In this document: piece by piece, positions 49,432-59,006 of the stretch
Position numbering within the stretch: the first letter of the stretch is position 1
Layout: each line of letters begins with the position of its first letter
Assembly (NCBI RefSeq): GCF_900168115.1
Contig: NZ_FUZC01000007.1
Span: 124,001 to 188,000 of the forward strand
DNA from: Salegentibacter salinarum
GTDB taxonomy: Bacteria > Bacteroidota > Bacteroidia > Flavobacteriales > Flavobacteriaceae
Length of the DNA: 64,000 nt
Direction: 5' to 3'
Notes under the pieces: model-generated
Databases searched by the model: none
What the model saw: only the letters and a program-made list of their open reading frames with translations
Told to the model about the DNA's origin: nothing
Program-made: the position numbers and the translations under genes

Positions 49432-50736
49432 TTGAAAATGAGATCTATTTTCTTAAATATTGCAAGGCTTTCTATTTTTATAGGAAGCCTTGCAATTTCA
49501 GCACAAACCAGTTCGATTAATAATTCAGGAACACTTGAAACAGCTGCTCCTGCTGAAGTAGGAATGTCTTCAGAAAGAATTTTGAAGATTGAAGAAATGC
49601 TGAAATCGGCAATTGATGAAAACCAGATTCCGGGAGCTGTAGCTTTAATAGCCCGCGATGGGAAAATTGTTTTTCACGAAGCTTATGGTGAAGCAGATGC
49701 TTCAGGAAAGGAACTCGAAAAAGATGCCATTTTTAGATTGGCCTCGCAAACAAAAGCGATAACAGCTACAGCCGTAATGATGCTTTGGGAAGAAGGGAAA
49801 TTCCGTTTAGATGATCCTGTTTCAAAATATATTCCTGAATTTAAAGATCCTAATATTCTAAAGGATTTTAAAGAATCTGACAGCACCTTTACTACTACGC
49901 CGGCTGAAAATGAAATTACCATTAGGCATTTGCTAACGCATACTTCCGGACTTGGTTACGGGATGATTGATAGTGATGATCGTATCAAAAAGATTTACGC
50001 CAAGGCCGGAATCACCGAATTATTCACTGAAGACGAGGTGAGCATTGGAGAAAATGTAAAGAAACTGGCGACTTTACCATTACACCACGAACCCGGGGAA
50101 AAATTTACGTATAGTTTAGGTTTGGATGTGCTTGGTTATTTTATTGAAGTAATTTCAGGACAGGATTTTGATGAATTTCTGAAAAAAAGAATCTTCGATC
50201 CACTTCAAATGGATGATACAAGGTTTTATCAGCCTTCAGAAAAAAAGGATCGCTTAGTGGCGGTACAGCATAAAAAAGAGGGAGAATGGGAAAATTATCC
50301 AAATACATTTTATAATACTAATTATCCGTTAGCCGAAAACGGTTCTTTCTTTTCCGGTGGCGCCGGTTTATCGGGAACTGCTGAAGATTATGCTAAATTC
50401 CTTCAAATGTATCTAAACGGAGGAGAATACAATGGTACACGCTTATTAAGTCGAAAAACGGTAGATATTATTATGGGAAACCAATCGGGTGAGAAATTTA
50501 ATTATCCAAATCAGTACTACGGTCTTTCGTTCGGAATTGTAAGTGAAACCGGAGAAATTGCAGGAGGGCAGGGTAGTGCCGGCACATTTGATTGGGGCGG
50601 TTATTTCAACACGCAATATTTTGCAGATCCCGAAGAACAAATAATCGGTATTTTGTTGAAGCAAACCCAAGGCAACACCGGTGATGAAACCGGCTGGAAA
50701 TTCAGGCAAATGCTTTTTAGTGCTGTAGATGATTAA
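49432..50736 (+). CDS. Secreted serine hydrolase, class C beta-lactamase fold
   Basis: 434 residues with a signal peptide (MKMRSIFLNIARLSIFIGSLAISAQ). SQTK at 105-108 carries the nucleophile Ser; YSL at 227-229 stands where beta-lactamases have YxN, and GGAGLSGTAEDYAKF supplies a later loop. The changed third residue of the YxN triad suggests an esterase or peptidase rather than a true beta-lactamase. It is five bases after the prohibitin gene. Confidence 0.85.
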   Translation: MKMRSIFLNIARLSIFIGSLAISAQTSSINNSGTLETAAPAEVGMSSERILKIEEMLKSAIDENQIPGAVALIARDGKIVFHEAYGEADASGKELEKDAIFRLASQTKAITATAVMMLWEEGKFRLDDPVSKYIPEFKDPNILKDFKESDSTFTTTPAENEITIRHLLTHTSGLGYGMIDSDDRIKKIYAKAGITELFTEDEVSIGENVKKLATLPLHHEPGEKFTYSLGLDVLGYFIEVISGQDFDEFLKKRIFDPLQMDDTRFYQPSEKKDRLVAVQHKKEGEWENYPNTFYNTNYPLAENGSFFSGGAGLSGTAEDYAKFLQMYLNGGEYNGTRLLSRKTVDIIMGNQSGEKFNYPNQYYGLSFGIVSETGEIAGGQGSAGTFDWGGYFNTQYFADPEEQIIGILLKQTQGNTGDETGWKFRQMLFSAVDD

Positions 50737-50844
50737 GAAAAAGCCCGCTGTAGGCCCATAAATAATTACTTTCCGAGAAGGTAACATTTTTGTATAATTC
50801 CGATTATCGCATAAAACAATTCATAAAAAAGCAGAAAGCTGTTT

Positions 50845-50873
50845 TGCAGTTTAAAATTTATATTTAGATTTGT
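50845..50873 (+). promoter_or_regulatory. Promoter of the histidine operon
   Basis: TTG at 50845-50847, an 18 bp spacer and TAGATTTG at 50866-50873. Transcription should begin a few bases later, so the leader peptide ATG at 50881 lies at or very near the 5' end of the mRNA. Confidence 0.6.
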
Positions 50874-50880
50874 ATTCACA

Positions 50881-50937
50881 ATGAAGAAGTTTCAATTACA
50901 TCACCATCATTTTTACAACTGCGCTCAGGCGAGGTAA
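50881..50937 (+). CDS. hisL: His operon leader peptide (18 aa, four consecutive His)
   Basis: ATG 50881 to TAA 50937 encodes MKKFQLHHHHFYNCAQAR. Codons 7-10 (50899-50910) are four His codons (CAT CAC CAT CAT). It sits 7 bases after the promoter -7 element, upstream of a terminator hairpin and 128 bases before hisG. This is the layout of amino acid attenuation control: low charged tRNA-His stalls the ribosome at the His codons. The match of His count, position and terminator with hisG is strong. A very short ORF by chance is the alternative. Confidence 0.9.
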   Translation: MKKFQLHHHHFYNCAQAR

Positions 50938-51003
50938 ATTTGGTGTGTTGTAATTTCCAGCATATTTAAGACCCGTTTGAGCTATTCAAACGGGTTTTTT
51001 TGT
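50913..51003 (+). promoter_or_regulatory. His attenuator: alternative RNA pairings and terminator
   Basis: Three pairings can be seen. TTACAAC (50913-50919) with GTTGTAA (50947-50953) forms a 7 bp early stem. GCTCAGG (50923-50929) with TTTGAGC (50976-50982; two G-U) would block the 5' arm of the terminator. The terminator is ACCCGTTTGA (50971-50980) with TCAAACGGGT (50986-50995), a perfect 10 bp stem with a T-run to 51001. A ribosome stalled at the His codons would cover the first arm and allow the antiterminator; one that reaches the stop codon would cover 50923-50929 and allow termination. Confidence 0.8.
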
Positions 51004-51022
51004 TTTATAATCAAAACCAAGC

Positions 51023-51046
51023 CTCACAGATTTTTAAACCCTGTGA
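51023..51046. repeat. Family C repeat between attenuator and hisG
   Basis: CTCACAGATTTTTAAACCCTGTGA is a variant of the hairpin at 14514-14543 (TCACAG pairs with CTGTGA). It lies between the his terminator and the hisG ATG at 51066. Confidence 0.6.
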
Positions 51047-51065
51047 TTTATAAAAAAAAATTAAA

Positions 51066-51929
51066 ATGAGTCAGGAAAAATTAAGAATTGCTATTCAAAA
51101 ATCGGGTCGATTAAATGAAGATTCGCTCAAAATATTAAAAGACGCAGGAATTTCTGTAGATAACGGAAAAGAGCAACTAAAAGCTTCTTCTCGTAATTTT
51201 CCTTTGGAAGTGATGTATTTGCGAAATGGGGATATCCCGCAGTATTTAAGAGATGGTGTGGTAGATGTCGCTATTATTGGTGAAAATGTATTAATCGAAA
51301 AAGGAAAAGATATTATACAGGGAGAAAAACTCGGATTTTCAAAATGCCGTGTTTCACTTGCAGTTCCAAAGTCGATGAAATATACGGGAATTGAAGATTT
51401 AGACGGAAAAAAGATTGCCACTTCCTATCCCAATACGGTAAATGAATTTCTTGAAAAGAAAGGAATAACTGCCGAATTGCATATTATTAATGGCTCAGTT
51501 GAAATCGCTCCAAATATTGGCCTGGCCGATGGGATTTGTGACATTGTTTCCAGCGGAAGCACACTTTTTAAAAACGGCCTCAAAGAAGTGGAAGTAATGC
51601 TGAAAAGTGAAGCAGTGCTCGCTATTTCTCCTAAAATTTCATCGGAAAGAAAAACGATTCTTGAGAAATTACAATTCAGGCTAAAATCGGTTTTAAATGC
51701 ACGGACTTCAAAATATATTCTCTTAAACGCTCCAAATGATAACCTGGATAATATCATTAAATTGCTACCCGGGATGCGCAGCCCAACGGTTTTACCGCTT
51801 GCTGATAAAGGTTGGAGTTCAATTCACACCGTAATCAATGAAGAACGTTTTTGGGAGGTTATTGACGAATTAAAACAAAACGGTGCCGAAGGAATTTTGG
51901 TAGCGCCAATTGAAAAAATGGTACTTTAA
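51066..51929 (+). CDS. hisG: ATP phosphoribosyltransferase (long form)
   Basis: 287 residues, so the long, self-sufficient HisG that does not need HisZ; the last 75 residues are the ACT-like regulatory domain that binds histidine. The PRPP loop DIVSSGSTLFKNGL is present. First step of histidine synthesis. Start ATG 51066 follows the attenuator and the family C repeat. It ends one base before hisD. Confidence 0.95.
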   Translation: MSQEKLRIAIQKSGRLNEDSLKILKDAGISVDNGKEQLKASSRNFPLEVMYLRNGDIPQYLRDGVVDVAIIGENVLIEKGKDIIQGEKLGFSKCRVSLAVPKSMKYTGIEDLDGKKIATSYPNTVNEFLEKKGITAELHIINGSVEIAPNIGLADGICDIVSSGSTLFKNGLKEVEVMLKSEAVLAISPKISSERKTILEKLQFRLKSVLNARTSKYILLNAPNDNLDNIIKLLPGMRSPTVLPLADKGWSSIHTVINEERFWEVIDELKQNGAEGILVAPIEKMVL

Positions 51930-51930
51930 A

Positions 51931-53220
51931 ATGAAAAAGTTTTACAATCCCACCAGATCAGAATGGTCCGAAATTTTAAAAAGACCCACACAAACCGTAG
52001 AAGATATCGAAGAAACAGTGAATCAGGTCTTTGCTGAAGTAAAAGCGAAAGGCAATGATGCCGTTTCAAAATATACCGAACTTTTTGACGGGATCAACCT
52101 TGAAGAAACCCGGGTTTCTAAGGAAGAAGTGAGTTCGGCTGAATTTCAAATTTCTGAGGATTTAAAGCAGGCGATAAATTTAGCTAAAACGAATATAGAA
52201 AAATTCCACAGCGCTCAAAAAACGGAGAGAATTGAAGTAGAAACTACAAATGGTGTAAAATGCTGGCAGGAGAAAAGACCAATTCAAAAAGTCGGATTAT
52301 ATATTCCCGGGGGCAGCGCTCCTTTGTTTTCAACCATTTTAATGCTTGCCGCTCCGGCCAATATCGCAGGCTGCAAAGAGATTGTACTTTGTACGCCACC
52401 CGATAGAGAGGGAAATGTGCATCCCGCTATTCTTTATACAGCTGCGCTATGCGGAGTCACGAAAATCTTTAAAATCGGAGGCATCCAGGCTATTGCCGCT
52501 ATGACTTTCGGTACGGAGAATGTGCCAAAAGTTTATAAGATATTTGGCCCCGGAAATCAATTTGTAACCGTAGCAAAGCAATTGGCTACCCGTCATAATG
52601 TTGCAATCGACATGCCGGCTGGCCCTTCAGAACTATTGGTTTTTGCTGATGATACAGCAAATGCTGCTTTTGTGGCTTCCGATTTATTAAGCCAGGCAGA
52701 ACACGGCACCGATAGCCAGGTTATTTTAGTTTCTAACTCCAAAGAGCTTATAGAAAATGTTGAAGCTGAAGTTGAAAATCAATTAAATGATTTACCCCGA
52801 AAAAGTATTGCGGAAAAAGCTATTGCACATTCCCGTCTTATTTATACTGAAGATAAAAATGATGCACTGGAATTAATAAACGAATATGGCCCGGAACATT
52901 TTATAATTTGTGCTGAAGATGAAACTTTTTATACTGAAGGGATTCAAAATGCAGGTTCGGTTTTTATTGGCAATTACACGCCAGAAAGTGCCGGCGATTA
53001 CGCTTCAGGAACCAACCATACTTTGCCAACAAATGGTTATGCAAAACAATACAGCGGAGTGAATCTGGATAGTTTTATGAAGAGTATGACTTTTCAGAAA
53101 ATATCTGAAAATGGAATTCGTGAAATTGGTCCGGCTATAAAACTAATGGCAGAAGCCGAAGGTTTACAGGCCCATAAAAATGCAGTGAGTTTACGTTTAA
53201 AGGAATTAAGAACTAAATAA
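51931..53220 (+). CDS. hisD: Histidinol dehydrogenase
   Basis: 429 residues. Zinc enzyme making histidine from histidinol in two NAD steps. IYIPGGSAPLFSTILMLAAP, GPGNQFVTVAK and SDLLSQAEHG (zinc His) are characteristic. Start ATG 51931 lies one base after the hisG stop. Downstream a family A repeat separates it from hisC. Confidence 0.95.
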   Translation: MKKFYNPTRSEWSEILKRPTQTVEDIEETVNQVFAEVKAKGNDAVSKYTELFDGINLEETRVSKEEVSSAEFQISEDLKQAINLAKTNIEKFHSAQKTERIEVETTNGVKCWQEKRPIQKVGLYIPGGSAPLFSTILMLAAPANIAGCKEIVLCTPPDREGNVHPAILYTAALCGVTKIFKIGGIQAIAAMTFGTENVPKVYKIFGPGNQFVTVAKQLATRHNVAIDMPAGPSELLVFADDTANAAFVASDLLSQAEHGTDSQVILVSNSKELIENVEAEVENQLNDLPRKSIAEKAIAHSRLIYTEDKNDALELINEYGPEHFIICAEDETFYTEGIQNAGSVFIGNYTPESAGDYASGTNHTLPTNGYAKQYSGVNLDSFMKSMTFQKISENGIREIGPAIKLMAEAEGLQAHKNAVSLRLKELRTK

Positions 53221-53249
53221 ATTTGGTAGTCTGGAAAAGCTGTTAAGTC

Positions 53250-53330
53250 GTCATTCTGAATTTATTTCAGAATCTAAGATTTTCAATTAGTTTCGAACTA
53301 GACCCTGAAACGAGTTCAGGGTTACGTCCT
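53250..53330. repeat. Palindromic repeat, family A, copy between hisD and hisC
   Basis: The core GTCATTCTGAATTTATTTCAGAATCTAA (53250 onwards) is followed by ACCCTGAA-ACGAG-TTCAGGGT, a perfect 8 bp stem at 53302-53322. It fills the 134 bp hisD-hisC gap. No T-run follows, so it need not terminate. Confidence 0.7.
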
Positions 53331-53354
53331 GATTCCACAAGACCATAAAAAAGA

Positions 53355-54401
53355 ATGAAAAATTTCAACATAAATAACCTGGTACGGCCCAATGTTGCAG
53401 GTTTGAAACCTTATTCATCGGCCAGAGACGAATATCAATCTACCGGATCAGAAATGGTTTTTCTAGATGCTAATGAGAATCCATTCCAAACTGATGTTAA
53501 CCGTTATCCAGATCCGCAGCAACGCAGTCTTAAGGTTGAATTGGCAAAGCTAAAAAATGTGGTCCAGGGGAATATTTTACTCGGTAACGGGAGCGATGAA
53601 GTTTTAGATTTACTTTTTAGAGCGTTTTGTGAACCGGGAAAGGATAATATTATCACTTTGCCTCCAACTTATGGGATGTACAAAGTGTTGGCAAATATCA
53701 ATAATATTGAAAACAGGGAGGTTTTGCTAAATGCAGATTTTGAACCCAATGTTGAAGAAATTCTGAAATGGGTAAATCAAAACACGAAAATGATCTTCTT
53801 ATGTTCCCCCAATAACCCAACCGGCAACTCTTTTTCAGAAGAAAATGTTTCAGAAATTTTAAACAATTTCAACGGTTTAGTTATTATTGATGAGGCTTAT
53901 ATTGACTTTTCAGCACAAGAAAGTTGGTTGAATAAACTGGAGCAGTACCCAAATTTAGTGATTACGCAAACCCTTTCTAAAGCTTACGGGATGGCGGGGA
54001 TTCGCCTGGGAATTTGTTATGCTTCCGCAGAAATTATCGGGATTTTAAATAAAATTAAACCCCCATATAATGTAAACGAATTAACCCAACTAAGAGCTTT
54101 AGATCGCGTGCTAAATTCTGATAAAGTAAATTCCGAAGTGTCTGATTTACTTGAAGAAAGAGATGCTGTAGGTAAAGCTTTAGTTGAAGTAAAGTTTATT
54201 GAAAAAATTTATCATTCTGATGCTAATTTTATCCTTGTAAAGGTTGATAATGCCAATAAACGTTACGACCAATTAATTCAAAAAGGAATCGTAATTAGAA
54301 ACAGAACTACCCAACCTCTTTGCGAAAATACATTGAGGTTTACGGTAGGAACTGAGGCTGAGAACAGAAAGTTAATAGAAGTTTTAAAAAGTATAGAATA
54401 A
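53355..54401 (+). CDS. hisC: Histidinol-phosphate aminotransferase
   Basis: 348 residues, fold-type I. The Schiff-base Lys is residue 209 in TLSKAYGMAG; MIFLCSPNNPTGNSF and VIIDEAYIDF are typical. It converts imidazole acetol phosphate with glutamate to histidinol phosphate. Flanked on both sides by repeat-filled gaps. Confidence 0.95.
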   Translation: MKNFNINNLVRPNVAGLKPYSSARDEYQSTGSEMVFLDANENPFQTDVNRYPDPQQRSLKVELAKLKNVVQGNILLGNGSDEVLDLLFRAFCEPGKDNIITLPPTYGMYKVLANINNIENREVLLNADFEPNVEEILKWVNQNTKMIFLCSPNNPTGNSFSEENVSEILNNFNGLVIIDEAYIDFSAQESWLNKLEQYPNLVITQTLSKAYGMAGIRLGICYASAEIIGILNKIKPPYNVNELTQLRALDRVLNSDKVNSEVSDLLEERDAVGKALVEVKFIEKIYHSDANFILVKVDNANKRYDQLIQKGIVIRNRTTQPLCENTLRFTVGTEAENRKLIEVLKSIE

Positions 54402-54420
54402 GTAATAAAAACTTTTAGGC

Positions 54421-54552
54421 GTCATCCTGTCCCGAAGTTTCGGGATTATTTCAGGCTCTAAGTTGTTAGAAAATGTTATTTAAAGGACGGGATGCTGAAA
54501 ACCCAGCTTTGGAGTTAAAATTAATATAGATTTACGCGAAGGCGGAAATGAC
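54421..54552. repeat. Composite repeat between hisC and hisB
   Basis: Begins GTCATCCTGTCCCGAAGTTTCGGGA (family A, as at 43130), passes through TTTAAAGGACGGGATGCTG, which resembles 57298-57320, and ends with the 25 bp family B copy at 54528-54552. No ORF. Confidence 0.7.
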
Positions 54553-54564
54553 TAAGAATAAGTT

Positions 54565-55707
54565 ATGAAAAAAGTATTATTTATAGATCGTGACGGGACT
54601 TTAATTCACGAGCCGGAAGATTACCAGGTAGACAGTATAGAAAAACTGGAATTCTACCCCGAAGCTCTTTATTATTTAAAGAAAATTTCATCTGAATTGG
54701 ATTTTGAGTTTGTAATGGTTACCAATCAGGATGGCTTGGGATCTGAAGCTTATCCGGAAGAAAAATTCTGGCCTATTCAAAATTTTATACTACAAACCTT
54801 TAAAAATGAAGGCGTAGAATTCAGTGAAATTTTAATGGATCGCACATTTGCCAAAGAGAACTCTCCAACCCGAAAACCCAACACCGGGCTGTTAGAGGAA
54901 AAGTATTTAAATAATGAAAAGGAATACGATCTTAAAAATTCTTTTATGATCGGCGACCGGCTTACAGATATTGAATTCGCTTACAATTTTGATGGAAAAG
55001 GGATTTTTATTGACACCCACGAAGATCTTGCAACCGATGAAGTACAGAACGATCAGGAGAAGGTTAAAAGAACCATTGCTTTAAAAACCGATAGTTGGAA
55101 GAAGATTTATGAGTTCCTGAAGTTGAACGACAGGACTGCCGAAATCTCCCGGAAAACCAATGAAACCGATATTTTTATTCGGCTGAATCTGGACGGAACG
55201 GGGAAATCAGAAATTAGCACCGGGATTGCATTTTTTGATCATATGCTGGATCAAATAGCCCGTCATGGCCAAATGGACCTTATAGTTGATGTTAAAGGTG
55301 ATTTAGAAGTTGATGAGCATCACACTATAGAAGATACAGCTATCGCCCTGGGAGAAGTGTTCAGTAAAGCTTTAGGTAACAAATTGGGAATAGAACGCTA
55401 CGGGTTCTGTTTGCCAATGGACGATTGCCTGTCTCAGGTAGCCATCGATTTTGGCGGAAGAAACTGGATTGTTTGGGAAACTGAATTTAAGCGGGAAATG
55501 GTTGGAAAAATGCCAACTGAAATGTTCTACCATTTCTTTAAATCCTTTACCGATGGTGCAAAAGCAAACCTAAACGTAAAAGCCGAAGGCCAGAACGAAC
55601 ATCATAAAATCGAAGCGATTTTTAAAGCTTTTGCGAAAGCTATTAAAATGGCAGTAAAACGAGATGCTGAAAAGATGATTTTACCTTCAACAAAGGGAAT
55701 GCTATAA
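54565..55707 (+). CDS. hisB: Bifunctional histidinol-phosphatase / imidazoleglycerol-phosphate dehydratase
   Basis: 380 residues. Residues 1-165 are a HAD phosphatase (FIDRDGTLI with Asp8 and Asp10). Residues 190-380 are IGPD, with [30 protein letters not shown] and [12 protein letters not shown] carrying the manganese His ligands. Both activities are in histidine synthesis. The bifunctional form is usual in Bacteroidota and gammaproteobacteria. Confidence 0.95.
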
Positions 55708-55784
55708 AAGATGATAGACATGAGTATTGAGTAATGAAATATATGGAAGAACAGCACTCAATACCAACTACTGAATAAAAGAAA

Positions 55785-56369
55785 ATGAACATTGTAATAA
55801 TAGATTATGGCGCCGGGAATATCCAAAGCATAAAGTTCGCAATAAAGCGTCTTGGCTACGATGCAATTCTTAGCAGCAATGCGGAAGAGATCAGGTTGGC
55901 AGATAAGGTGATTTTTCCGGGTGTGGGAGAGGCGAGTAGCGCTATGAAAATGCTGAAATCCACCGGATTGGATAAAGTGATTCCTACCTTGAAACAACCG
56001 GTTTTGGGAATTTGCCTTGGTATGCAATTAATGTGTACCTATTGCGAGGAAGGCGATACCGACGGACTTGGGATTTTTCACGCCAATGTGGTTAAATTCG
56101 ATAATAAACTTAAAGTACCACAAATTGGCTGGAACCGTATTTATGATTTAAAATCGGAATTATTTACCGGAATTTCAGAGCAGGAATTCGTGTATTTGGT
56201 GCATAGTTTTTATGTAAAGGAATGCGAAGAAACCATCGCATCGACAGAATATGGTGTGGAGTATACTTCGGCAATCCAGAAAGATAATTTTTATGGTGTA
56301 CAGTTTCACCCGGAAAAGAGCAGTGATGCAGGAGAAAAAATTCTTGAGAATTTTTTAAAAGCCACGTAA
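55785..56369 (+). CDS. hisH: Imidazole glycerol phosphate synthase, glutaminase subunit
   Basis: 194-residue class I glutamine amidotransferase. The nucleophile lies in LGICLGMQLM and the His/Glu of the triad in VQFHPEKSS; the N-terminal IDYGAGNIQSI is typical. It supplies ammonia to HisF. Confidence 0.95.
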   Translation: MNIVIIDYGAGNIQSIKFAIKRLGYDAILSSNAEEIRLADKVIFPGVGEASSAMKMLKSTGLDKVIPTLKQPVLGICLGMQLMCTYCEEGDTDGLGIFHANVVKFDNKLKVPQIGWNRIYDLKSELFTGISEQEFVYLVHSFYVKECEETIASTEYGVEYTSAIQKDNFYGVQFHPEKSSDAGEKILENFLKAT

Positions 56370-56386
56370 GTAGATTTCAATAGAAC

Positions 56387-56484
56387 GCGTCATTGCGATG
56401 GAGGCACGACTGAAGTGATCCTCTAATCTGGAAAAAATCTATCGAAGGATTACCACGCTCCTTTGTCGCTCCCTCGTAATGAGG
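56387..56484. repeat. Repeat element between hisH and hisA (CGTCATTGCGA type)
   Basis: Ends GCGTCATTGCGATGGAGGC and CCTCGTAATGAGG are loosely inverted, with GATCCTCTAATC...GGATTACCACG inside. This is a distinct dispersed-repeat type from family A. It fills most of the 182 bp gap. Confidence 0.55.
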
Positions 56485-56551
56485 TAGAGAAGCAAGAATA
56501 AATATTAGTGAATTTGTGGCTAAATAATAAATACTAATTAGATACTTAAAA

Positions 56552-57289
56552 ATGAGAATAATTCCGGCTATAGATATTATTGAAGGTAAGTGCGTAAGAC
56601 TTTCCAAAGGTGATTATAATACCAAGAAAATTTATAATGAAAATCCGTTGGAGGTGGCTAAAAACTTTGAAGCACACGGAATTCAGAATTTACATTTGGT
56701 AGATTTAGATGGCGCAAAGTCAAAGCACATCGTGAATCACAAAATCCTGGAAGAGATTGCTTCAAAAACCGGTTTGAAAGTAGATTTTGGCGGCGGACTT
56801 AAAACCGATAAAGACCTGAAAATTGCTTTTGAATGTGGCGCAAATCAAATTACCGGTGGAAGTATCGCGGTGAAGGATCCAGAAACTTTTAAAAGCTGGC
56901 TTCAGAAATTTGGTTCAGAAAAAATAATTCTGGGCGCTGATGCAAATAACGAAAAGATCGCGGTGAGCGGCTGGCAGGAAGAATCCACCAAAGAACTCAT
57001 TCCTTTTATCCAGGAATATCAGCAGGAAGGTGTAAATTATGTAATTTGCACCGACATCTCTAAAGATGGAATGCTTGAAGGCCCGGCATTTGAACTTTAT
57101 CAAAGAATTTTAAAAGAAACTACTTCAGAAGATAAAGAGTTAAATTTAATCGCTTCCGGAGGGATTTCAACTTTTAGTGAACTACCCAAACTGGCTGAGC
57201 TGGGCTGCGAAGGAACCATAATCGGAAAGGCGATTTATGAAGGCCGTATTCAGCTAAAAGAACTGGAGAAATTTATTTTAAATAACTAA
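56552..57289 (+). CDS. hisA: ProFAR isomerase (HisA)
   Basis: 245-residue TIM barrel. [21 protein letters not shown] with Asp8, [16 protein letters not shown] and IASGGISTF are the HisA motifs. Isomerises ProFAR to PRFAR. It is 102 bp before hisF. Confidence 0.95.
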
Positions 57290-57391
57290 GTGTTCCCATT
57301 TAAAGGAGGGATGCCTGGAAGGCGGGCGGGTGAGTCACTTCAAACTTTCGAAACTTCTTTTAAAAATAAGAAGGAACTTAAAATATAAAAA

Positions 57392-58147
57392 ATGCTTACA
57401 AAACGAATTATACCCTGCCTGGATATCAAAAACGGAAGAACCGTAAAAGGCGTGAATTTCGAAGATTTACGCGATGCGGGTGATCCTGTAGAGTTGGCTG
57501 AGATCTATGCGAAATCGGGGGCAGATGAACTGGTTTTTCTTGATATTTCAGCTACAGAAGAAAAACGGAAAACCCTGGCCAATTTGGTGCGAAGAGTAGC
57601 CGAAAAAGTAAATATCCCATTTACCGTTGGTGGTGGAATTTCCTCGGTGGAAGATGTAGATATTTTACTAAAAAATGGTGCCGATAAGGTTTCGGTAAAT
57701 TCTTCTGCGGTGAAAAATCCTGATTTGGTTAATGAACTTGCGGCGAAATTTGGGAGCCAGTGTATTACCGTCGCAATCGATGCCAAGGAGATAAACGGCG
57801 AATGGATGGTACATTTAGTTGGTGGGAAAGTTCCAACCGATTTAAACTTATTTCAATGGGCCAAAGAAGTGGAAGAACGCGGTGCGGGAGAAATTCTATT
57901 TACATCAATGAATAATGATGGCACTAAGGCCGGATTTGCCAATAAAGCATTAGCGGTTTTATCTTCAGAATTGAACATTCCAGTAATTGCTTCAGGCGGA
58001 GCCGGGAATATGCAGCATTTTTGCGATACCTTTATTGAAGGAAAAGCAGATGCCGCACTTGCAGCCAGTGTTTTTCATTTTAAGGAAATCGAAATTAAAG
58101 ATTTAAAGGAAGAGCTTCGCAGGAATGGGGTGGAAGTTAGACTTTAA
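57392..58147 (+). CDS. hisF: Imidazole glycerol phosphate synthase, cyclase subunit
   Basis: 251-residue TIM barrel with [20 protein letters not shown] (Asp11) and [13 protein letters not shown] (Asp about 130). Uses HisH-derived ammonia to make IGP and AICAR. Followed by a 241 bp repeat-rich gap before hisIE. Confidence 0.95.
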
Positions 58148-58194
58148 AGAGATAAGAATAAAAAGACAGGATTCAAGAAAAGAGAGAAAAGAAA

Positions 58195-58386
58195 ATAGAA
58201 TAGAGAAATCTTTATTCTTTGCTCTTTCATCTCTATTCTATATCAACAAAAATATTAGTTCCTGAAATAATTCAGGATGGCATGCACTACCTCGGAGCAA
58301 GCTCACGGGGCATTCATTGGGAACATTGTTTAATTTCCGAGCCAAGCCTCGGAGAAATTAATCTCGATTATCGAGTAAAAAAATAA
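58195..58386. repeat. Repeat-rich region between hisF and hisIE
   Basis: A perfect 12 bp inverted repeat, ATAGAATAGAGA at 58195-58206 with its complement at 58230-58241, lies within a purine-rich then pyrimidine-rich tract. It is followed by CCTGAAATAATTCAGG, CTCGGAGCAAGCTCACGGGG and TCCGAGCCAAGCCTCGGA hairpins and a final AATCTCGATTATCGAG. No ORF of note. Confidence 0.6.
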
Positions 58387-58388
58387 AT

Positions 58389-59006
58389 ATGAATATAGAT
58401 TTTAATAAAAATAACGACGGTTTAGTACCTGCGATAATTCAGGATGCATCTACTAAAAATGTTTTGATGCTGGGCTATATGAATGAAGAGGCTTTTTTGA
58501 AAACTAATGAGACTAAAAAAGTTACTTTTTTCAGCAGGACTAAAAAGCGCCTGTGGACTAAAGGCGAAGAAAGCGGCAATTATCTTCATTTGGTGAATAT
58601 TAAAAATGATTGCGATAATGATGCCTTATTGATCTCGGTAAATCCTAAAGGACCAACCTGTCATAAAGGAACTGATACTTGCTGGGGTGAGAAAAACGAA
58701 CCAAATTTTGGGTTTCTGACTAAATTGGAAGGAATTATTGCGAAACGTAAAAGAATGAGCGAAGTGGAGCCTGAACTTCGGGAAGATAAAAACTCTTATG
58801 TAGTGTCACTTTTTGATGCCGGAATGAATAAAATAGCCCAGAAAGTAGGTGAGGAAGCTGTAGAAACTGTTATTGAAGCTAAAGATGATAACGCAGAATT
58901 ATTTTTAAATGAAAGTGCCGATTTACTTTTTCATTACCTCATTTTACTAAAAGCTAAAGGATATTCTTTAAAAGATATTAGCGAAGTTCTGGAAAAAAGA
59001 CATTAA
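58389..59006 (+). CDS. hisI: Bifunctional phosphoribosyl-AMP cyclohydrolase / phosphoribosyl-ATP pyrophosphatase
   Basis: 205 residues. The N-terminal HisI part has NVLMLGYMNEEAFLKT and the zinc cysteines in KNDCDNDA and GPTCHKGTDTCWG; the C-terminal HisE part has NKIAQKVGEEAVETVIEAKD. It catalyses steps two and three of histidine synthesis. Last gene of the operon. Often written hisIE. Confidence 0.95.
   Translation: MNIDFNKNNDGLVPAIIQDASTKNVLMLGYMNEEAFLKTNETKKVTFFSRTKKRLWTKGEESGNYLHLVNIKNDCDNDALLISVNPKGPTCHKGTDTCWGEKNEPNFGFLTKLEGIIAKRKRMSEVEPELREDKNSYVVSLFDAGMNKIAQKVGEEAVETVIEAKDDNAELFLNESADLLFHYLILLKAKGYSLKDISEVLEKRH

Follow-up and report, generated by a model that had tools for sequence, protein, structure and literature searches.

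The window, that is the whole stretch of 64,000 nucleotides that was analysed, contains a gap of 329 bases which has a serine-hydrolase-like gene (49432-50736) on one side and hisG (51066-51929, plus strand; TIGR00070) on the other. hisG is the first gene of the operon that would be regulated, a complete his operon with the order hisG-D-C-B-H-A-F-IE, in which hisD, hisC, hisB, hisH, hisA, hisF and hisIE (51928-59006, plus strand) each have at least one NCBIfam match over the cut-off. A -7 promoter box, a leader open reading frame and an intrinsic terminator follow one another in the gap, and the whole element, read from the plus strand, occupies positions 50865-51001.

The leader peptide and its conservation

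The leader ORF (50881-50937) codes for MKKFQLHHHHFYNCAQAR and ends with the stop codon TAA at 50935-50937. As the initial annotation had claimed, it contains four consecutive His codons, CAT CAC CAT CAT (50899-50910), putatively regulatory, and a short ORF carrying codons for the operon's own amino acid, one of the features that define an attenuator, is thus present at the his locus. An exact His-run pattern, CATCACCATCAC, had 0 matches in the genome of the window and was rejected; the actual run has a different codon order.

For comparison, up to 400 bases upstream of each hisG were taken. The gene was present in 44 of 60 genomes, including that of the window (16 had no match), and 43 of these were used, hisG of G052 being split; a further 80 hisG loci were kept from 172 relatives found in a contig search. 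An ORF of 8-44 residues that starts with ATG and contains HH or H.H was found 5' of hisG in 123/123 loci, 112 of which were distinct, so the conservation in Flavobacteriaceae that had been proposed as a check was found. This loose rule was also passed by 10 of the 112 opposite strands and by 35 of 918 own-genome tiles. A strict rule, requiring three consecutive His residues or a total of four, was satisfied by 109/112 of the hisG upstream regions compared with 0/112 opposite strands, by 6/918 own-genome tiles (9 on the other strand) and by one of 182 stretches near trpE, ilvD, homoserine dehydrogenase and prephenate dehydratase genes. The longest His run was at least three in 223 of 237 distinct leaders. 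The nearest relatives are Salegentibacter species, with HisG 91-97% identical in 14 genomes of this genus, and identical upstream regions occur among several of the genome loci and the named records.

Terminator, antiterminator and competing helices

The intrinsic terminator (50971-51001) lies between the leader and the first gene, as is expected of an attenuator, and consists of a stem (50971-50980 with 50986-50995) and a U-tract reaching 51001. The perfect 10 bp stem described in the initial annotation is present; 13 pairs were predicted by folding and 14, counting G-U, by the terminator scan. Two terminator-like sites were found in 50700-51100 against 0.2 expected, one of them on the opposite strand and elsewhere. 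Pair counts were made on alignment A1, comprising 36 of 45 representatives, the divergent L023, L032, L034, L036-L038 and L040-L042 having been left out beforehand. For the terminator, 99.7% of the cells were paired and 10 were double-change cells, and 0/500 shuffles were as high on either measure. A hairpin with a T-run was recognized by a simple rule in 109/112 relatives, that of L116 not being the expected one.

The putative antiterminator pairs GCTCAGGCG(a)GGT at 50923-50935 with ACCCGTTTGAGC at 50971-50982, the latter arm including the 5' arm of the terminator. The helix has 12 bp with one bulged A (A50932) in its 5' arm, GCTCAGGCGAGGT, and a predicted energy of -16.4 kcal/mol. The pairing of 50923-50929 with 50976-50982 proposed earlier is real, but it is only one end of this longer helix. 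The best duplex of 50881-50970 with the terminator 5' arm had an energy of -17.4, which was reached by 0/2000 dinucleotide shuffles (mean -7.0, sd 1.8). In the alignment 92.1% of the antiterminator cells were paired, compared with 25-50% when the 3' arm was slid, and 8 were double-change cells (5/500 shuffles as high); the number of pairs with double changes was not above that in shuffles (213/500 as high), because the 3' arm is constrained by its pairing in the terminator as well.

Covariation was also assessed by a partner swap, in which the duplex energy of a leader's own arms was compared with that of arms swapped between species. The test used 43 of the 45 representatives, two having no terminator by the rule, and in 11 of the 43, which had no arm motif, the arms were cut by position; related sequences were counted as independent. 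Own partners were favoured for the antiterminator (z -8.2), and 0/5000 permutations were as low. For two further helices the same test was applied to the segment from the ATG to the His run against the stretch after the arm motif (helix A), and to the first half of that stretch against its second half (hairpin P2). The values were z -6.1 for helix A and z -3.9 for P2, again with 0/5000 permutations as low in each case. The leader's own partner was in the best tenth in 10/43 representatives for helix A, 10/43 for the antiterminator and 6/43 for P2. A pair count for helix A on a fixed MAFFT alignment was left out because its register shifts between lineages.

According to the fold and the swap test, helix A joins a 5' arm extending from the codons immediately preceding the His run into the run itself (50894-50904) to a 3' arm past the leader stop codon (50945-50955), with the antiterminator arm in its loop. 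Hairpin P2 (50942-50966; 50942-50950 with 50958-50966) is nested in the antiterminator and overlaps the 3' arm of helix A, so that the two helices share this side. The initial annotation had proposed another competing helix, between TTACAAC (50913-50919) and 50947-50953. The two segments are exactly complementary and the helix is weak (-5.1 kcal/mol). When the segment between the His run and the arm motif was swapped against the stretch after the motif, z was -2.3 (23/2000) and -1.6 (273/5000), some signal which is far below that of helix A. It was rejected as a conserved competitor, helix A and P2 fitting the relatives better. The suggested search for covarying stems in Flavobacteriaceae was positive for the antiterminator, the terminator, helix A and P2.

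The spacing of the parts was determined in 191 leaders, a set which itself required the arm motif, so that 46 of the 237 leaders lie outside the count. The distance from the last His codon to the antiterminator arm varied little, being 15 nt in 100 of the 191 and 9 nt in 80, the leaders with the shorter spacing having a further His one residue later. The stop codon lay 12 nt past the start of the arm in 172/191. It lay inside the arm, with the motif kept, in 7/191 (L025, L029, L032, L070, L071, L111 and L355), suggesting that the RNA, rather than the peptide, is the reason for the conservation of the arm. In L070, L071, L111 and L355 (and in L025 and L029) CUCAGG is changed to CUUAGG (or CUUAAG/CUUAAA), which creates the stop while the pairing to G is kept. 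By eye, the terminator arm differs in distant members and the upstream arm apparently does too (CCGTCTGAG in L034 and L041, GGCTGTGGT in L038). In the Salinimicrobium loci L016, L079, L080, L082, L083, L089 and L090 the two middle bases of the arm (CTCTTGCG) are unpaired with an unchanged terminator arm, which suggests that a 2-nt internal loop in the antiterminator may be tolerated.

A covariance model built from 36 representatives matched 273 of 299 Flavobacteriaceae genomes of at least 90% completeness, covering 186 of 203 genera. A His leader was found in 138 of the 139 model-matched loci that were examined, L330 having none by the rule. From a draw of 392 genomes across the phylum 65 matched, of which 45 belong to this family; a further 7 share the order and 4 the class, and 9 are more distant. 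Two of the nine distant matches were strong, G476:C3:7475-7602 (E 9.9e-16) and G575:C37:15593-15713 (E 1.9e-14), and could be due to transfer of the his region or to misplaced contigs; the remaining distant matches (E 1e-6 to 9e-4) may include chance ones.

Promoter box and predicted transcription start

The -7 box TAGATTTG (50865-50872) is of the Bacteroidota TAnnTTTG type (consensus in PMC9723704), and a T-rich upstream promoter element, TTTTG (50842-50846), can be read 18 nt 5' of it. A promoter of the sigma-70 type (TTGACA/TATAAT) was also searched for and rejected, with 1 match against 1.9 expected. The distance from the box to the ATG at 50881 is 8 bases, not 7 as originally annotated. 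Promoters of Flavobacterium johnsoniae with 4-5 nt between the -7 box and the start are taken as probable in PMC6847099, and the -7 box of Flavobacterium psychrophilum is given as spanning -12 to -5 in PMC9723704. These spacings would therefore place the transcription start at 50877 or 50878, leaving a 5' untranslated region of 3-4 nt.

Among the 237 distinct his leaders, a sample which leans towards close relatives of the window, a TAnnTTTG or TAnnTTTA box was found 4-10 nt before the ATG in 111 (68 with TTTG, 43 with TTTA; one of the 111 also has a further box), hereafter the near class. With the same box rule, seven other bins of equal width held 2-25 leaders each. In the near class T is present in 95% at the columns 21 and 22 nt 5' of the box. 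By the strict rule 23 of the 237 leaders had no box, and 15 of those had TAnnTTTG 24-35 nt away. A near box was present at 66 of 69 distinct named loci, representing 11 genera and loci without a genus: Christiangramia 16, Gillisia 10, Maribacter 9, Flagellimonas 6, Salinimicrobium 4 (of 7), Zunongwangia 3, Allomuricauda and Pricia 2 each, Aurantibacter, Cellulophaga and Croceitalea 1 each, and 11 with no genus given. A hisG tree was computed with FastTree from the 151 of 164 loci with a long enough HisG; three of the 151 had no class, and a box 24-36 nt from the ATG was assigned to the far class. The box arrangement changes 4 times among the 148 labelled rows (shuffled mean 45; 0/500 as low), and the near arrangement thus looks old and bound to clades, although few branches of this tree (28 of 148) are well supported.

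The near-leaderless start of the his leader, as put forward in the initial annotation, accordingly looks conserved as regards the spacing of box and ATG in relatives, while the start itself is deduced from that spacing. The most serious alternative, although an unlikely one, is that the attenuator is real and the leader an ordinary leadered ORF, TAGATTTG not being a working -7 box and transcription starting further upstream. This would agree with the looser box NAnnTTTG found 12-23 nt before the ATG in 103/237 leaders, with the weaker match of TAnnTTTA, 43 of the 111 near boxes, to the consensus, and with the genome of the window itself, where TAnnTTTG lies at 9 nt or less in just 8 of the 49 genes having a box within 70 nt. 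It would leave unexplained the excess of near boxes over every other bin, their presence at nearly all named loci and their few changes on the hisG tree, and the same arrangement recurs in the trp leader.

That arrangement was found when 463 kb of the own genome were scanned for a box, 3-23 nt, an ATG, a short ORF and a terminator. Three places were obtained: the his leader, the trp leader MKNRIANTWWWKNLRQTS, where the gap is 5 nt, and a third that is probably due to chance. The gap implies that the trp leader transcript, too, would start at or beside its ATG. Together with a 12-bp terminator this leader forms a putative trp attenuator in front of trpE at L125, L234 (own genome, contig C35) and L124-L138. 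Within the scanned stretch TGGTGGTGG was present at 13 of 15 Salegentibacter trpE loci; in 7 of these the box and the ATG are 5-6 nt apart, in 5 an insertion has moved the box away, and in 1 no box is present there. Across the family, 30 trpE loci were listed, of 79 genomes with a match, and 29 of the 30 are preceded by an ORF containing WW, which in one case is probably spurious. The box lies 4-11 nt before the Trp-run leader in 20 of these 30 loci and further away in 7; two fell into neither group (one with the probably spurious ORF) and one had no leader. In many genomes, then, the his and trp attenuators alike have a near box.

Not all candidate leaders have a near-leaderless start. A Thr/Ile-containing ORF, MKITESNNFSTSKSVFNVGISGMTIIRITPFGV, which reads MKITESNNF...TIIRITPFGV, is found 5' of thrA on contig C15 of the own genome and may be the leader of a threonine attenuator; its box is about 20 nt from the ATG, and no clear U-tract terminator was seen at this candidate. 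No ilvD leader was found by the leader rule.

In flavobacteria only a minority of transcripts have no leader or a very short one: 5.5% of F. psychrophilum leaders are reported to be leaderless (PMC9723704), and 87% of F. johnsoniae leaders to exceed 10 nt (PMC6847099). It is tentatively suggested, with somewhat less than even confidence, that in Flavobacteriaceae, the mRNAs of which have no Shine-Dalgarno sequence, the his and trp leaders in a large part of the family are kept near-leaderless for a purpose, immediate loading of the first ribosome, which would then keep pace with the polymerase, taking the place that a strong ribosome-binding site has elsewhere.

Attenuation model and related systems

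The comparison supports the leader, the His run, the antiterminator, the terminator, helix A and the spacing of box and ATG, and more weakly P2. The conserved His run, the covarying stems and the matches of the covariance model in Flavobacteriaceae speak for the histidine attenuator recognized in the initial annotation, and the element is very probably a ribosome-mediated transcription attenuator of the his operon. The RNA motif CTCAGGCGAGG is kept even where the peptide ends before it, as might be expected of a protein- or metabolite-sensing riboswitch or of a plain terminator with a fortuitous ORF. Such an explanation is highly improbable, given the His run at every hisG locus examined, a repeated residue which is the product of the operon, and the WW-containing ORFs at the trpE loci. 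Rfam families did not match the element at the gathering threshold, which also argues against a riboswitch; RF00514 (His_leader) was absent even among 25 weak matches up to E 10, which included Thr_leader and Trp_leader, both far below their cut-offs. The idea that ORF and hairpins are fortuitous and without function, for which no supporting point was found, is practically negligible in view of conservation and covariation.

For the attenuator the following course is predicted, including the start point, the ribosome positions and the response to histidine. Transcription would start 3-4 nt before the leader ATG, and a ribosome would load once the start codon leaves the polymerase. When charged histidine tRNA is scarce, the ribosome would stall on the His codons (50899-50910), masking the 5' arm of helix A yet ending short of 50923. 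During the stall P2 and the 12-bp antiterminator could form before the 3' arm of the terminator exists, and transcription would continue into hisG. With plentiful histidine the ribosome would reach the stop codon (50935-50937) and mask the 5' arm of the antiterminator, so that the terminator would form.

The footprint of a ribosome at the fourth His codon, covering up to 50920, was assumed from general knowledge. With this ribosome in place and the terminator 3' arm not yet made, a constrained fold gave the antiterminator with P2 inside it (-25.3 kcal/mol). When the ribosome was placed at the stop codon, covering 50917-50947, other structure of only -2.4 kcal/mol was left at this stage of transcription, and the terminator would then form. 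An antiterminator which excludes the terminator, free at the stall and covered at the stop, was thus found by sequence and folding with the assumed footprint. Without a ribosome, helix A may form first, keeping the antiterminator arm in its loop and favouring termination; in this least certain step of the model helix A would be an anti-antiterminator of untranslated RNA, like H1 of the Corynebacterium glutamicum ilvBNC leader. The naked full-length RNA folds into helix A and the terminator (-37.9). The ribosome-free state is uncertain because naked RNA cut at 50985, without the complete terminator 3' arm, already prefers the antiterminator (-26.0).

Attenuation by leader peptides is textbook knowledge, and the enterobacterial his leader has seven His codons and an A-F ladder of helices. 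The element shares with that leader (RF00514) a His-rich peptide and an antiterminator competing with a terminator before hisG, and differs in having four His codons, no start led by a Shine-Dalgarno sequence, fewer competing helices and no match to the covariance model. A leaderless leader peptide, considered unusual in the initial annotation, is so in comparison with enterobacteria, but it has been reported elsewhere (PMC7298713, PMC11857589), and the switch is accordingly of a known kind, leaderless attenuators being in print for other phyla. The likeness is to the trpL of Sinorhizobium meliloti, an attenuator RNA which is described as beginning at the leader ATG, a small leaderless mRNA (PMC7298713); it differs in responding to tryptophan and in being alphaproteobacterial, and its 5' end is given there from earlier data (reference 35 of that paper). 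The ilvBNC leader of C. glutamicum is treated as leaderless in PMC11857589, with H1 as an antiantiterminator, as is suggested above for helix A; it concerns branched-chain amino acids in Actinobacteria and was tested by mutation. The title of a work cited in PMC13236596 names a leaderless polycysteine attenuator of mycobacteria.

Of the same bacterial family and the same class of mechanism are the leaders of amino-acid operons of F. psychrophilum, for which transcriptome data gave clues to attenuation by leader peptides (PMC9723704); the word histidine does not occur in the main text of that paper, and its passages on these leaders give neither helices nor a leaderless start. The his attenuators described for the Bacillus cereus group, Eubacteriales and Erysipelotrichales have 3-5 consecutive His codons before a terminator/antiterminator, and belong to Bacillota, 17 genomes in all (PMC9413887). 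Small ORFs of Bacteroides thetaiotaomicron are called 'reminiscent of leader peptides' (PMC7366714), and a terminator survey of 2010 does not contain 'Bacteroid' or 'Flavobacter' in its main text (PMC2965389). No named Flavobacteriaceae his attenuator was found in the open-access literature by title and beginning of the abstract. The comparative survey of Lopatovskaya et al. in 2010, a reference in PMC4833913, may include Bacteroidetes cases.

New here are the corrected RNA model, the distribution across the family and a near-leaderless start that appears to be conserved. A histidine attenuator which is present throughout a family and absent from Rfam would belong to a phylum in which such switches are little described, and the covariance model detects it. 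The near-leaderless his leader could serve as a test bed for the question of how ribosomes initiate on leaderless mRNAs where Shine-Dalgarno sequences are missing, and of how transcription and translation stay synchronous in such bacteria.

The insertions in the trp leaders of Salegentibacter amount to a natural experiment on leader spacing. In L124, L128, L132, L134 and L135 about 30 nt with a GCC...GGC inverted repeat lie between the -7 box and the trp ATG. By eye, all of these except L128 retain an ATG at the old near-leaderless place; in L134 and L135 this ATG shares the frame of the WWW leader, and in L124 its ORF ends in an ATGA overlap with that leader.
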